Of a stretch of 37,396 bases of DNA, positions 21,772 to 25,621 are shown piece by piece. Position numbers and translations under genes: made by a program. The stretch is from Mycobacteriales bacterium (GTDB lineage Bacteria; Actinomycetota; Actinomycetes; JAFAQI01), in assembly GCA_035504215.1 (NCBI GenBank), contig DATJSI010000056.1:1-37396 (forward strand), given 5' to 3'. Below the pieces are notes generated by a model. That model did not search any database and was not told the origin of the DNA. It was given only the letters and a program-made list of their open reading frames with translations. The first letter of the stretch is position 1. Every line of letters starts with the position of its first letter.

Positions 21772-22652
21772 CACTGTCTGACCTCGTCCTTGATCCCCGC
21801 GAACAGATCGTCCTCCGGCTTGACCGTGTCCACCAGCGATCGCGCCAACTCATAGTCCTCGGTCGGCCACGCCTTGCGTTGAATCTCCAGCGGGCAGGCA
21901 AACCAGAACGATGTCGGATCGACTTGGGTCGCATGCGCGATGAGCGCCTTGTCCCGGATCTCGAAGTAGTCCGCGCAGTTCACCCGCGTCGTGACGCGAT
22001 ACCCGAGATCGGGCCGCTCGGTCCACTCCTCGAGCCGATCGGCGTACGGCGACTCGAGTCCGGCCTCGACCATCGCCTCGTGCAGGGCAAGGAAGCGGTT
22101 GCGGTGGAACGTCATGTGGTAGTAGAGCTTCAGCGGCTGCCAGGGCTCGCCGGTGCCGGGATAGCGATCGGGATCACCAGCCGCCTCGAACGCTTCCACG
22201 CTGACCTTATGGCACATGATGTGATCCGGGTGCGGGTAGCCGCCGTTCTCGTCGTACGTCGTTATGACGTGCGGCCGGAACGTGCGCACGACCCGGACGA
22301 GCGGTTCCGCGGCGTCGTGCAGCGTCTCCAAGGCGAAGCAGCCCTCGGGCAACGGCGGCAGCGGGTCGCCCTCGGGAAGCCCGGAGTCGACGAAGCCGAG
22401 CCAGGTGTGGTGCGCGCCGAGGATCTCGATCGCGCGCTGCATCTCGTGATGGCGGATCCCGCTCAGGTTGGCGTTGACCTCCGGTGTGTCCATCGCCGGA
22501 TTGAGGATCGATCCACGCTCGCCGCCGGTGCACGTGGCGATCAGAACCTCGACGCCCTCGCGCACGTAGCGGGCGACCGTCGCGGCGCCCTTGCTCGCCT
22601 CGTCATCGGGATGCGCGTGCACGGCAAGCAGTCGAAGCGGTTCGTCACTCAC
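21771..22652 (-). CDS. mca: Mycothiol S-conjugate amidase
   Basis: 293-residue zinc hydrolase of the LmbE/PIG-L fold. It cleaves mycothiol S-conjugates to a mercapturic acid and GlcN-Ins, detoxifying electrophiles. Visible: zinc site HAHPDDEAS (His14, Asp17), the [13 protein letters not shown] segment, and the third ligand region [13 protein letters not shown]. The HPDDEAS(K)G form, the length, and the C-terminal [21 protein letters not shown] stretch favour Mca over the deacetylase MshB. Start: GTG 22652, with a weaker CACCAT hexamer six bases upstream. It is divergent from greA (40-base gap), as in mycobacteria, and heads the small-protein/marR operon. Confidence 0.95.
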
Positions 22653-22679
22653 GCTCCAATGGTGTCACGGCTACGCGGG

Positions 22680-22685
22680 TAGCCT
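22680..22685 (+). promoter_or_regulatory. -10 element of greA
   Basis: TAGCCT lies seven bases before ATG 22693, fitting a leaderless greA transcript. The 40-base divergent gap to mca leaves little room for anything else, and on the minus strand CACCAT lies six bases before the mca GTG. No clear -35 is seen for either gene. Confidence 0.5.
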
Positions 22686-22692
22686 CGATCGG

Positions 22693-23184
22693 ATGAGCGA
22701 CGCGACCCAGACCTGGCTGACGCAGGACGCCTACGACCGCCTCGCTGCCGAACTGGAGCACCTCTCCGGCCCCGCGCGCACGGAGATCACAGCGCGCATC
22801 GCCGCCGCCCGCGCCGAGGGCGACCTCAAGGAGAACGGCGGCTACCACGCGGCCAAGGACGAGCAGGGCAAGATGGAAGCGCGGATCCGCCAGCTCAACC
22901 AGCTGCTTCGCAATGCAAAGGTCGGTACGCCGCCGTCGGCCGACGCAGGCGTCGCCGGGCCGGGCATGGTCGTCACCGTTCGGTTCAGCGACGGCGACGA
23001 GGAGACCTTCTTGATCGGCTCGCGCGAAGAGGCGGCCGTCACCGACCTGACCGTCTACTCCGCACAGTCACCGCTCGGCCAGGCGCTCACCGGCGCGAAG
23101 CCGGGCGAGGCGGTCAGCTACGCCGCTCCCAACGGCAGCGAGATCGCCGTCGAGGTCATCGAGGTCAAGGCCCACACCGGCTGA
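22693..23184 (+). CDS. greA: Transcription elongation factor GreA
   Basis: 163 residues. The N-terminal coiled coil inserts into the RNA polymerase secondary channel and stimulates cleavage of backtracked RNA. The tip is intact: the ARAEGDLKENGGYHAAKDEQGKM segment carries the conserved Asp-Leu-Lys-Glu-Asn motif with acidic tip residues. The C-terminal FKBP-like domain shows VTVRFSDGDEETFLIGSREE, SPLGQALTGAKPGEAVSY and a final beta strand. Length and order are normal for GreA. ATG 22693 was chosen over longer upstream readings because of the family start and the TAGCCT hexamer. It ends exactly at the first unit of a repeat array. Confidence 0.96.
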   Translation: MSDATQTWLTQDAYDRLAAELEHLSGPARTEITARIAAARAEGDLKENGGYHAAKDEQGKMEARIRQLNQLLRNAKVGTPPSADAGVAGPGMVVTVRFSDGDEETFLIGSREEAAVTDLTVYSAQSPLGQALTGAKPGEAVSYAAPNGSEIAVEVIEVKAHTG

Positions 23185-23188
23185 CGTC

Positions 23189-23276
23189 GGCACCGAGCGC
23201 ATGGCCGGCCGGCACCGAGCGCATGGACGTCCGGCACCGAGCGCATGGACGTCCGGCACGGAGCGCATGGCCCATA
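23189..23276. repeat. Four 22-bp tandem repeats after greA
   Basis: Four head-to-tail units start at 23189, 23211, 23233 and 23255. Each is GGCACCGAGCGCATGG (GGCACGG... in unit 4) plus six variable bases: CCGGCC, ACGTCC, ACGTCC and CCCATA. The junction octamer is self-complementary in both versions, GGCCGGCC after unit 1 and GGACGTCC after units 2 and 3, so the palindrome is kept while its bases change. A partial unit (ACGTCGGCACC) begins at the greA stop codon. The 22-bp period is not a multiple of three, so this is not coding. Confidence 0.85.
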
Positions 23277-23370
23277 GGTGCGCTGCCGGGCAGCACGCAT
23301 GGGCCATGACGGTCGCCTGGGCGACACCCATGGGCCATCCGCGTGGCGCGACGCCGCACCCATGGGCCAT
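23266..23370. repeat. Chain of three hairpins built on four CATGGGCCAT elements
   Basis: CATGGCCCAT (23266) and three CATGGGCCAT copies (23298, 23329, 23361) are spaced 32, 31 and 32 bases apart. Each interval holds a different inverted repeat: GCTGCC-G-GGCAGC (23282-23294), GTCGCC-TG-GGCGAC (23312-23325) and GGCG-CGA-CGCC (23345-23355, extended by flanking pairs). The flanking CCAT/ATGG halves can also pair, 10 bp perfect for the first (23266-23275 with 23299-23308). The array ends about 30 bases before the ilvA stop, so it lies between convergent genes and may terminate both. Confidence 0.8.
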
Positions 23371-23400
23371 GCGCGTCGTGGCCCCGCGCGCAGCGTCCGG

Positions 23401-24651
23401 TCAGTCCACCCAGAGCGGGTAGCCGCACTCGCGGATCCGGCTGAGGATCGCCTCGCAGTGTTCCTCGCCGCGGGTCTCCAGCTGGACCGAGACCTCGACC
23501 TCGTCGATGTGCAGCTTGGGGCCGGTCCGAAGATGCTCGACGTCCAGGACGCTCGCACCCATGCCGCCGAGCTCGACCAGCAGCTTGGCAAGCTCGCCGG
23601 GACGGTCCGGGATCAGCGCGTGGAAGGCGAGATAGCGACCCGCGGCGATCATGCCGTGCCGCACCACGCGGGCGAGCAGCACCGGGTCGACGTTGCCTCC
23701 CGACAGCAGCGCCACCACGGGCGGTTCGAACATCTCGGGGGCTTCCATCACCGCCGCAACGGCAGCCGCGCCGGCCGGCTCGACGACCAGCTTCGCCCGC
23801 TCGAGGATCAGCAGCAGGGCGCGGGCCAACGCGTCCTCGGGCACGGTGAGTACGTCGTCGACATAGCGGCGGACGAGGTCGAAGGTCAGCTCGCCGGGGC
23901 AGCCGACCGCGATGCCATCAGCCATCGTCGCCATCGACGCGAGCGGTACCGGGCGACCTTGGCGCAGCGACTCCGGGAAGCTGGCCGCGCCCTTCGCGTT
24001 GACGCCGACCACCCGGACGCCCGGCAACAACGCCTTGGCCGCGATCGCTACGCCGGAGATCAACCCGCCACCGCCGACGCTGACGACGATCGTCTTCACC
24101 TCGGGACATTGCTCGACGATCTCGAGCCCGACCGTCCCCTGCCCCGCGACGATGTCCGGGTGGTCGAACGGGTGGATGAGAACCGCGCCCGTCGACGCGG
24201 CGAACTCCTTCGCGGCCACGAGACCCTGGTCGAGTGTGGTCCCGACAAACCGCACGTCGGCGCCGTACGACTTCGTCGCAGTGACCTTCGGGATCGGCGC
24301 GCCCTCGGGCATGAACACGGTGGCCTGCGTGCCGAGCAACGACGCCGCCAGCGCGACCCCCTGCGCGTGGTTGCCCGCACTCGCCGCGACAACGCCGCGC
24401 GCCCGTTCCTCTGGGCTGAGCCGCGAGATCCGCACATACGCACCGCGCGGCTTGAACGATCCAGTGCGCTGGAGGTTCTCGCATTTGAGATGTACGGGAC
24501 CCCCGACCAGCTTGGCCAGCGGCCGCGAGTTCTCCAGCGGAGTACGACGGACGACATCGCCGAGCAGGTCGCGTGCCGCTTCGATGTCGGCGAGGCCGAC
24601 CGCGGCGGGTGTTTCGGCAGCAGGGACTGAGGCGGCCATTGACTCGGTCAC
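23401..24651 (-). CDS. ilvA: Threonine ammonia-lyase with ACT domain
   Basis: 416-residue PLP enzyme of the serine/threonine dehydratase family that deaminates threonine to 2-oxobutyrate, the first step toward isoleucine. The PLP lysine is in RTGSFKPRGAYVR, the phosphate loop is SVGGGGLISGVA and the substrate loop is SAGNHAQGVA. A single C-terminal ACT domain (PDRPGELAKLLVELGGMG) marks the ~400-residue form rather than the long E. coli IlvA with two ACT-like modules. The biosynthetic or catabolic role cannot be settled from sequence. GTG 24651 lies four bases after the ROK stop with CAGACT six bases upstream; ATG 24639 is the alternative. Confidence 0.92.
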   Translation of the reverse strand: MTESMAASVPAAETPAAVGLADIEAARDLLGDVVRRTPLENSRPLAKLVGGPVHLKCENLQRTGSFKPRGAYVRISRLSPEERARGVVAASAGNHAQGVALAASLLGTQATVFMPEGAPIPKVTATKSYGADVRFVGTTLDQGLVAAKEFAASTGAVLIHPFDHPDIVAGQGTVGLEIVEQCPEVKTIVVSVGGGGLISGVAIAAKALLPGVRVVGVNAKGAASFPESLRQGRPVPLASMATMADGIAVGCPGELTFDLVRRYVDDVLTVPEDALARALLLILERAKLVVEPAGAAAVAAVMEAPEMFEPPVVALLSGGNVDPVLLARVVRHGMIAAGRYLAFHALIPDRPGELAKLLVELGGMGASVLDVEHLRTGPKLHIDEVEVSVQLETRGEEHCEAILSRIRECGYPLWVD

Positions 24652-24655
24652 GCGA

Positions 24656-25621
24656 TCAGTCTGCACCCGCGGGCCAGTAGCGGTCCCCGGCCGCCACCAA
24701 CGCCGCCGCCCCGACCAGGCCCGCGTCATTGCCGAGCGCCGCCGGGACGATCCGGCAGTCGCGGACGAAATCCATCCGTGCGTGCCGCGCGAATGCGCTC
24801 CGGGCGGGCCCGAGCAGCAGGTCACCGGCCGCGGTGAGCCCGCCACCCACCGCGACGACATCGAGCTCGAGGAGATGGGCGGCCGACGCGATCGCTACGC
24901 CGAGCGCCTCGCCGGCGCGCGCAAACGCAGCGACCGCAACCTCCGCACCCGCCCGCGCCGCGTCGAGCAACGCCGAGCCGTCGGCGACGCCGGTCGGCTT
25001 CCAGCCCTGGTCGAGCGCCCACTGCACCACTGCGGGTCCGCGCGCGATCGCCTCCAGGCAACCGAGGCCGCCACACGCGCACGCCGGCCCCGAGGGATCG
25101 ACGACGACATGCCCGATGTGGCCGGCGTTGCCGGTCGGGCCGGCGACGATCCGGCCGTCGAGTACAAGTCCCCCGCCCACGCCGGTCGAGACGACGATGC
25201 CGAGCAGACCGTGCGCATCGCGCCCGGCACCACGCCAGTGCTCGCCGACCGCCATTGCGATCGCGTCGTTGACCAGCCGGACCACGCGACCCGGGTACCG
25301 CTCCGACAGCCGGGACCGCAACGGGAACGATCGCCAAGCCGGCAGGTTGAGCGGCGACACCAACCCCGCCGGCCACTGCATCGGGCCCCCACAGCCGACG
25401 CCGACGGCAGCCGGCGACCGGCCGGCGCAGACTGCATCGAGCAGACCGACGAGGGTCGTCCATAGCTCCTCGCCGGCGCCCGGACCACTCGGCTCGGTGG
25501 GCACCTGCCGGCGATCGTGAACCTCGCCGTCGCGATCGACCCACGCCGCCGCGAGCTTGGTGCCGCCGACGTCGATCGCGAGGATTCCGTCGTCCGGCAC
25601 GACGGCGCCGACCGGAGTCAT
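24656..25621 (-). CDS. ROK-family sugar kinase (glucokinase-like)
   Basis: 321 residues. The N-terminal ATP phosphate loop is ILAIDVGGTKLAAAWVD, followed by catalytic-region VNDAIAMAVGEHW and GIVVSTGVGGGLVLDG. The ROK zinc/structural motif is GHVVVDPSGPACACGGLGCLEA (Cys-X-Cys-X4-Cys intact). Most actinobacterial relatives phosphorylate glucose, but sugar specificity is not certain here, so no gene symbol is given. ATG 25621 has a CGAGG-like sequence upstream. It lies between the FIST gene (22-base gap) and ilvA (4-base gap), likely one operon. The HTH of ROK repressors is absent. Confidence 0.92.
   Translation of the reverse strand: MTPVGAVVPDDGILAIDVGGTKLAAAWVDRDGEVHDRRQVPTEPSGPGAGEELWTTLVGLLDAVCAGRSPAAVGVGCGGPMQWPAGLVSPLNLPAWRSFPLRSRLSERYPGRVVRLVNDAIAMAVGEHWRGAGRDAHGLLGIVVSTGVGGGLVLDGRIVAGPTGNAGHIGHVVVDPSGPACACGGLGCLEAIARGPAVVQWALDQGWKPTGVADGSALLDAARAGAEVAVAAFARAGEALGVAIASAAHLLELDVVAVGGGLTAAGDLLLGPARSAFARHARMDFVRDCRIVPAALGNDAGLVGAAALVAAGDRYWPAGAD

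Follow-up and report, generated by a model that had tools for sequence, protein, structure and literature searches.

BOX elements of Streptococcus pneumoniae are modular, non-autonomous intergenic hairpin repeats whose internal units vary in number. Integron attC sites carry GTTRRRY/RYYYAAC end boxes around a variable palindromic interior, and DNA uptake sequences (DUS/USS) are built on a short core that has lineage-specific dialects and forms inverted pairs behind genes. REP/REPIN/BIME repeats often occur as inverted pairs or clusters, near the 3' ends of genes and between convergent genes (PMC3733652). Hairpin 3' ends without a U-tract are common in Streptomyces (PMC8269248), and across phyla, clusters of hairpins are proposed to act as intrinsic terminators (PMC8355165).

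Here we describe arrays of a dispersed repeat, one of which lies between the convergent genes greA and ilvA in a 37,396-nt stretch of actinobacterial DNA (the window). Their unit consists of a 9-nt core (ATG-nnn-CAT) and a 22-23 nt, mostly self-complementary segment, which gives a period of 31-32 nt. In kind, the arrays resemble REP/BIME and pneumococcal BOX elements, and in probable function U-less terminators. Like REP/REPIN/BIME repeats (PMC3733652), they are dispersed, extragenic and palindromic, form inverted pairs and clusters, and are found near 3' ends and in convergent gaps; unlike them, they have a fixed period of 31-32 nt, a separate 9-nt core and cores that are specific to a genus. 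The GTAG/CGTC tag at the foot of REP palindromes was absent from the consensus of A1 and A3, and a search for the Y1 transposase (RAYT, PF01797) gave 0 matches in the window's genome, which is 96% complete, while the control search was positive in five known genomes. Lacking both tag and Y1_Tnp, the arrays were not assigned to the RAYT-type REPs. They share with BOX elements the modular hairpin repeat, the variable number of internal units and the intergenic location, but differ in sequence and host, are symmetric and repeat the core in every unit.

In GC-rich bacteria, I-shaped and clustered-hairpin terminators lack a U-tract and lie no more than about 80 nt from stop codons (PMC8355165, PMC8269248), and the arrays likewise place a stable, U-tract-less hairpin about 80 nt or less from the stop codon. 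Those terminators are unrelated sequences, whereas the arrays, as putative terminators, are copies of a single repeat whose core and period are conserved. We detected no U-tract terminator-like site at positions 22600-24900 of the window, and a canonical intrinsic terminator was rejected because the hairpin lacks a U-tract. Short cores with lineage dialects and inverted pairs behind genes are also seen in DUS/USS, but the core is too rare outside the arrays for an uptake sequence, with a single occurrence, within an ORF, in 857 kb of array-free contigs of the window's genome. Variable self-complementary interiors at gene ends are shared with attC sites, from which the arrays are set apart by the core alone, as all dialects have ATGnnnCAT and not the attC end boxes. 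A CRISPR was rejected since the conserved part is just 9 nt and the intervening segments recur and are self-complementary. A known structured RNA was also rejected, as no Rfam 15 family matched the window at its gathering score and the only hits were far below threshold. A literature search, in which few subscription journals were covered, found no description of the arrays.

The array between greA and ilvA

The array occupies positions 23266-23370, 82 nt from greA on its left (22693-23184, plus strand, an ORF) and 30 nt from the 3' end of ilvA on its right (23401-24666, minus strand, supported by an ORF and a gene call). GreA is 75-85% identical in ten relatives, and homologs of ilvA adjoin greA in relatives. 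The first-pass annotation had described four near-identical 10-mers spaced 32, 31 and 32 nt apart, each interval with its own inverted repeat, and we re-located all of these exactly. The 10-mer CATGGCCCAT covers 23266-23275, and CATGGGCCAT begins at 23298, 23329 and 23361. Within them lie four ATGGSCCAT cores in the order > < < <, enclosing three self-complementary segments. Core 1 (23267-23275, plus strand) is a forward core, ATGGCCCAT; core 2 (23299-23307), with the sequence ATGGGCCAT, core 3 (23330-23338) and core 4 (23362-23370) are reverse cores on the minus strand. Inner segment 1 (23276-23298) pairs GCTGCC at 23282-23287 with GGCAGC at 23289-23294, and together with cores 1 and 2 it makes up the head-to-head central unit. 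Inner segment 2 (23308-23329) pairs GTCGCC (23312-23317) with GGCGAC (23320-23325), and inner segment 3 (23339-23361) pairs GTGGCG with CGCCGC, including one G-U. Tandem Repeats Finder also reported a 22-nt tandem repeat, four copies of GACGTCCGGCACCGAGCGCATG at 23183-23270, which lies between greA and the array, reaches into core 1 and had gone unmentioned in the first-pass annotation. The sequence GAGCGCATGG is common to this repeat and to the array's left edge, of which the repeat is probably an expansion; no exact second copy was found in the genome.

We compared the predicted RNA fold of 23266-23370 with dinucleotide-shuffled controls and found an energy excess on both strands (-65.4 kcal/mol, z -3.90, on the plus strand; -74.5 kcal/mol, z -5.45, on the minus strand); neither stability was reached by any of the 200 shuffled sequences. 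The minimum-energy fold is a single long imperfect hairpin in which core 1 pairs with core 4. The chain of three hairpins proposed from the sequence is thus not the most stable form, although each unit is able to fold alone.

Build, folding and location of the dispersed family

The array is not an isolated element but one of 71 arrays that we recovered from five genomes. In the 3.47 Mb draft genome of the window, CATGGGCCAT occurs 42 times, compared with 5 times for a reversed control, and pairs of TGGSCCA with a gap of 22-26 nt occur 112 times per strand, compared with once for a control pattern. The arrays hold 2 to 14 cores at intervals of 30-33 nt, most often 31 or 32. The usual array is organised around a single head-to-head centre, which extra units can flank on either side, and 47 of 64 arrays (genomes G000, the window's own, G004, G005 and G011) are simple > ... 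< series with a single such centre. In G000, 26 arrays have this build and none the reverse. Because of the head-to-head centre, such an array as a whole forms one large inverted repeat and presents the same appearance to both flanking genes. The inner segments of 22-23 nt vary from unit to unit yet tend toward self-complementarity. Within the greA-ilvA array they are unlike one another, as had been noted, but the same few types return in other arrays, the two frequent ones being GTGGGGC-TATA-GCCCCAC and GTGTCGCC-NN-GGCGACAC. Separately, two contigs of G000 (C37 at L014:1-430 and C146 at L030:2860-3169) break inside arrays that show the same alternating 31/32-nt two-unit pattern; these contigs may be adjacent in the genome and separated at a long array.

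The fold excess was general in G000 (28 arrays; mean z of -3.4 and -3.8 on the two strands). Since the greA-ilvA gap of six relatives contains no array, compensatory changes were examined among repeat copies and in other genera. In 60 distinct 31-nt units, 79% of the cells in six inner pairs were paired, compared with 71% in column shuffles, and the covariation score was 0.219, compared with 0.100 in shuffled columns and reached by 0 of 500 shuffles; as the units are related by descent, these shuffle figures cannot be taken as probabilities. Column pair 15-26 alternates between G-C and U-A, while pair 16-25 is unpaired in 33 of the 60 units and pair 13-28 is also rich in unpaired cells. In 30 head-to-head units from three genera, both sides of the three central core pairs change together with no broken pair, which shows concerted change of the dyad and not RNA pairing itself, because the reverse core is the forward core turned round. 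The inner pairing, the covariation and the two-sided core changes support the earlier proposal of selection for structure over plain duplication. Its author had named two observations that would speak against it, an absent energy excess and inner changes on one side only; overall we saw neither, despite the many unpaired cells in pairs 13-28 and 16-25. Duplication of a single unit was rejected, as the inner segments differ and still pair. A strand test in units of fixed orientation gave 71 G-U and 39 A-C mismatches, which leans towards RNA on the forward strand but weakly, the units being related; on the sense strand the excess was gone (68 and 54).

To place the arrays, genes were called by codon usage with our own script. 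With few exceptions, the 71 arrays are intergenic. The median distance to the 3' end of the facing gene was 28 nt, and in 51 of the 71 arrays it was 60 nt or less; some of these distances are overlong because the gene caller misses some short genes, such as an anti-sigma gene at L016. For gap orientation we used the 53 arrays that were classifiable and did not overlap a called ORF, together with 389 control gaps of 20-600 nt from array-free contigs and the window. Convergent gaps held 25 of the 53 arrays, compared with 47 of the control gaps (odds ratio 6.5, p 1e-8), with a slight bias toward this enrichment because the control contigs came from G000 only and were picked for lacking arrays; within G000 alone the odds ratio was 5.5. 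Divergent gaps were depleted of arrays (4/53, compared with 96/389 control gaps, p 0.0045). Tandem gaps made up the other 246 controls, and the arrays inside such gaps sit close to the 3' end of the upstream gene. Outside G010, the first core facing the adjoining gene was a forward core in 52 of 54 cases. With one head-to-head centre, RNA polymerase leaving a gene thus reaches a forward core first.

Distribution, core dialects and a gene bracketed by arrays

The genome that contains the window is a member of a small actinobacterial order, from which 13 genomes were covered. In six relatives the greA-ilvA gap is 3-34 nt long and has no array, compared with 220 nt in the window, which indicates that the window copy was acquired. 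A covariance model built from the 60 units gave 147 matches in its own genome, 35 in G010, 29 in G011, 5 in G005 and 1 in G004. With the central bases of the core unspecified, a fixed-spacing pattern (ATGNNNCAT) gave 58 forward matches in G000, 20 in G011, 28 in G004 and 3 in G005, with one stray match in the remainder of 394 sampled genomes of the class. Among the sampled genomes of the class, the repeat is limited to one family, and its carriers are the window's genome and four others.

The centre of the core is genus-specific (GCC, TGC or TGA) and matched on both arms. Forward cores read ATGGCCCAT in the window's genus and ATGTGCCAT in G011, and G004 and G005 share ATGTGACAT; the opposite arm carries the reverse complement. 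The orthologous gap between two genes that we take, from reading their proteins, to encode an anti-sigma-like and a glycerol-3-phosphate-dehydrogenase-like protein is occupied by an array in G000 and also in G004, with the dialect proper to each genome. The G004 core ATGTGACAT at L218:1191-1199 ends the upstream reading frame with its TGA, and the C-terminus of the encoded protein is unlike that of the G000 ortholog. This suggests insertion at the gene end. The arrays of G010 have the same core, the 31-nt spacing and the place behind genes, are mostly in a single orientation, and showed no fold excess when tested. At two G010 loci (L169:2833-3360 and L165:2700-2951) a second repeat, based on GCTCGGCGATCG/CGATCGCCGAGC and bearing long inverted arms, is interleaved with the core units in alternation.

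By inspecting intervals in which two arrays stand about 1 kb apart, we found a gene of about 313 amino acids. It is located beside glpD in G000 (L016:3066-4007, minus strand), between ptsI-like and MFS-like genes in G005 (L260:7652-8593, plus strand) and next to sucD in G011 (L243:17117-18058, minus strand), and a truncated copy lies upstream of ndk in G000 (L023:3244-3891, plus strand). Identity among L016, L260 and L243 is 55-61% between genera. Each of the four copies found stands between two arrays; they come from three genera and occupy four unrelated places. The gene starts about 90-120 nt past the first array. The second array lies 15-25 nt beyond the stop codon in two intact copies; the stop codon of the G011 copy falls within that array, and the truncated copy extends into it. 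Searched with a profile of the gene, the 857 kb of array-free G000 contigs gave no match, and as about one third of G000 was examined, unbracketed copies may exist. In G004 and G010, the surroundings of the arrays examined contained no copy, and other genes also occur between paired arrays. The two arrays at L016 are 78/83 identical and closer to each other than to any other array. Flanking by direct duplicates of one array is clear only there, and was rejected as a general arrangement because L023 and L243 do not show it.

The protein had no match in Pfam, NCBIfam or PDB, and the gene none in a scan of viral contigs. The nearest outside relative found, at 28.8% identity, was a hypothetical protein encoded on a Rhodococcus plasmid. 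Read by eye, the motifs of the bracketed protein (TR.QALE...LRHRLA..W..LLPGVY, PDALF..A.LVHETN.R..H and QARHDAMT.AGLTV) suggest that it may combine an AbiEi-like winged helix with a PD-(D/E)XK-like core. The bracketed gene may be the spreading factor of the repeat, and is the part that could set the repeat beyond known kinds. Tentatively, and with some doubt, the arrays could be the ends and solo remnants of a new mobile element, whose gene product would recognise ATG-nnn-CAT, spread arrays in trans and co-evolve with the cores of each genus. In this proposed mobile-element reading RAYTs offer a parallel, as they spread REPs in trans, but the enzyme here would be unrelated to them.

Competing explanations for the arrays

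We consider it moderately probable that the array is a copy of a dispersed, structured repeat of one family that was inserted between convergent greA and ilvA, where its RNA hairpin would end or protect both transcripts without a U-tract, and that the repeat spread as a non-autonomous mobile element. The arrays probably stop or shield transcripts at gene ends. A bidirectional 3'-end element best accounts for the association with gene ends, the symmetry of the arrays, their hairpins and the paired changes. The two-way element between convergent genes, first put forward as one of several options, is kept as the leading idea. The symmetric array would present the same face to both convergent genes, and a strong hairpin or hairpin cluster could halt RNA polymerase without a U-tract; alternatively, once Rho has released the transcript, the hairpin could block 3' exonucleases. 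The repeat, as a non-autonomous mobile element, would be tolerated, or useful, at gene ends. Several observations count against such a role. Relatives manage with a short greA-ilvA gap and no array, the G010 arrays keep core, spacing and place without a fold excess, the strand test is weak and lost on the sense strand, and the site has no U-tract terminator.

The persistence of core and period in G010, where the inner hairpins are missing, favours instead an element acting mainly as DNA, with sites three helical turns apart for an ATG-nnn-CAT-binding protein (in topology, nucleoid structure or insulation) and inner palindromes of secondary importance. Convergent gaps are known gyrase- and REP-type locations, and the near-palindromic core changes its centre in concert across a genome, as if co-evolving with a protein. 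A binding site would not need varying self-complementary interiors, however, and the strict gene-end location and gene-facing orientation better fit a transcript signal; we regard this explanation as unlikely. It is fairly unlikely that the arrays are purely selfish mobile repeats, functionless at gene ends and surviving between convergent genes where insertion does least harm. Such a repeat would fit the array-free greA-ilvA site of relatives, the restriction to one family, the variable copy number, the bracketed gene at four places and the G004 array that replaced the end of a gene and supplied its stop codon. It sits less well with the choice of convergent gaps although tandem gaps are far more plentiful, and with the way arrays in tandem gaps hug the upstream 3' end. 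The orientation rule and paired changes also suggest selection, though an enzyme that recognises hairpins could yield both. GC-rich DNA folds easily, and the weak Rfam matches in the window come from unrelated families, yet an artefact of composition or chance is extremely improbable given the shuffle results, the 112 core pairs against one in the control and the near absence of matches from roughly 380 further genomes in the class; the core-pair counts and the shuffles rule out chance.

The arrays make up an unnamed family of repeats that is unusually strict in its build, its orientation and its address at gene 3' ends, and whose cores shift in concert between genera. Should the bracketed gene prove to move or maintain the arrays, REP-like repeats would have evolved twice, the second time with an unrelated enzyme. 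A family of this kind offers a natural way to test whether, in GC-rich bacteria, structured repeats terminate transcripts without U-tracts.
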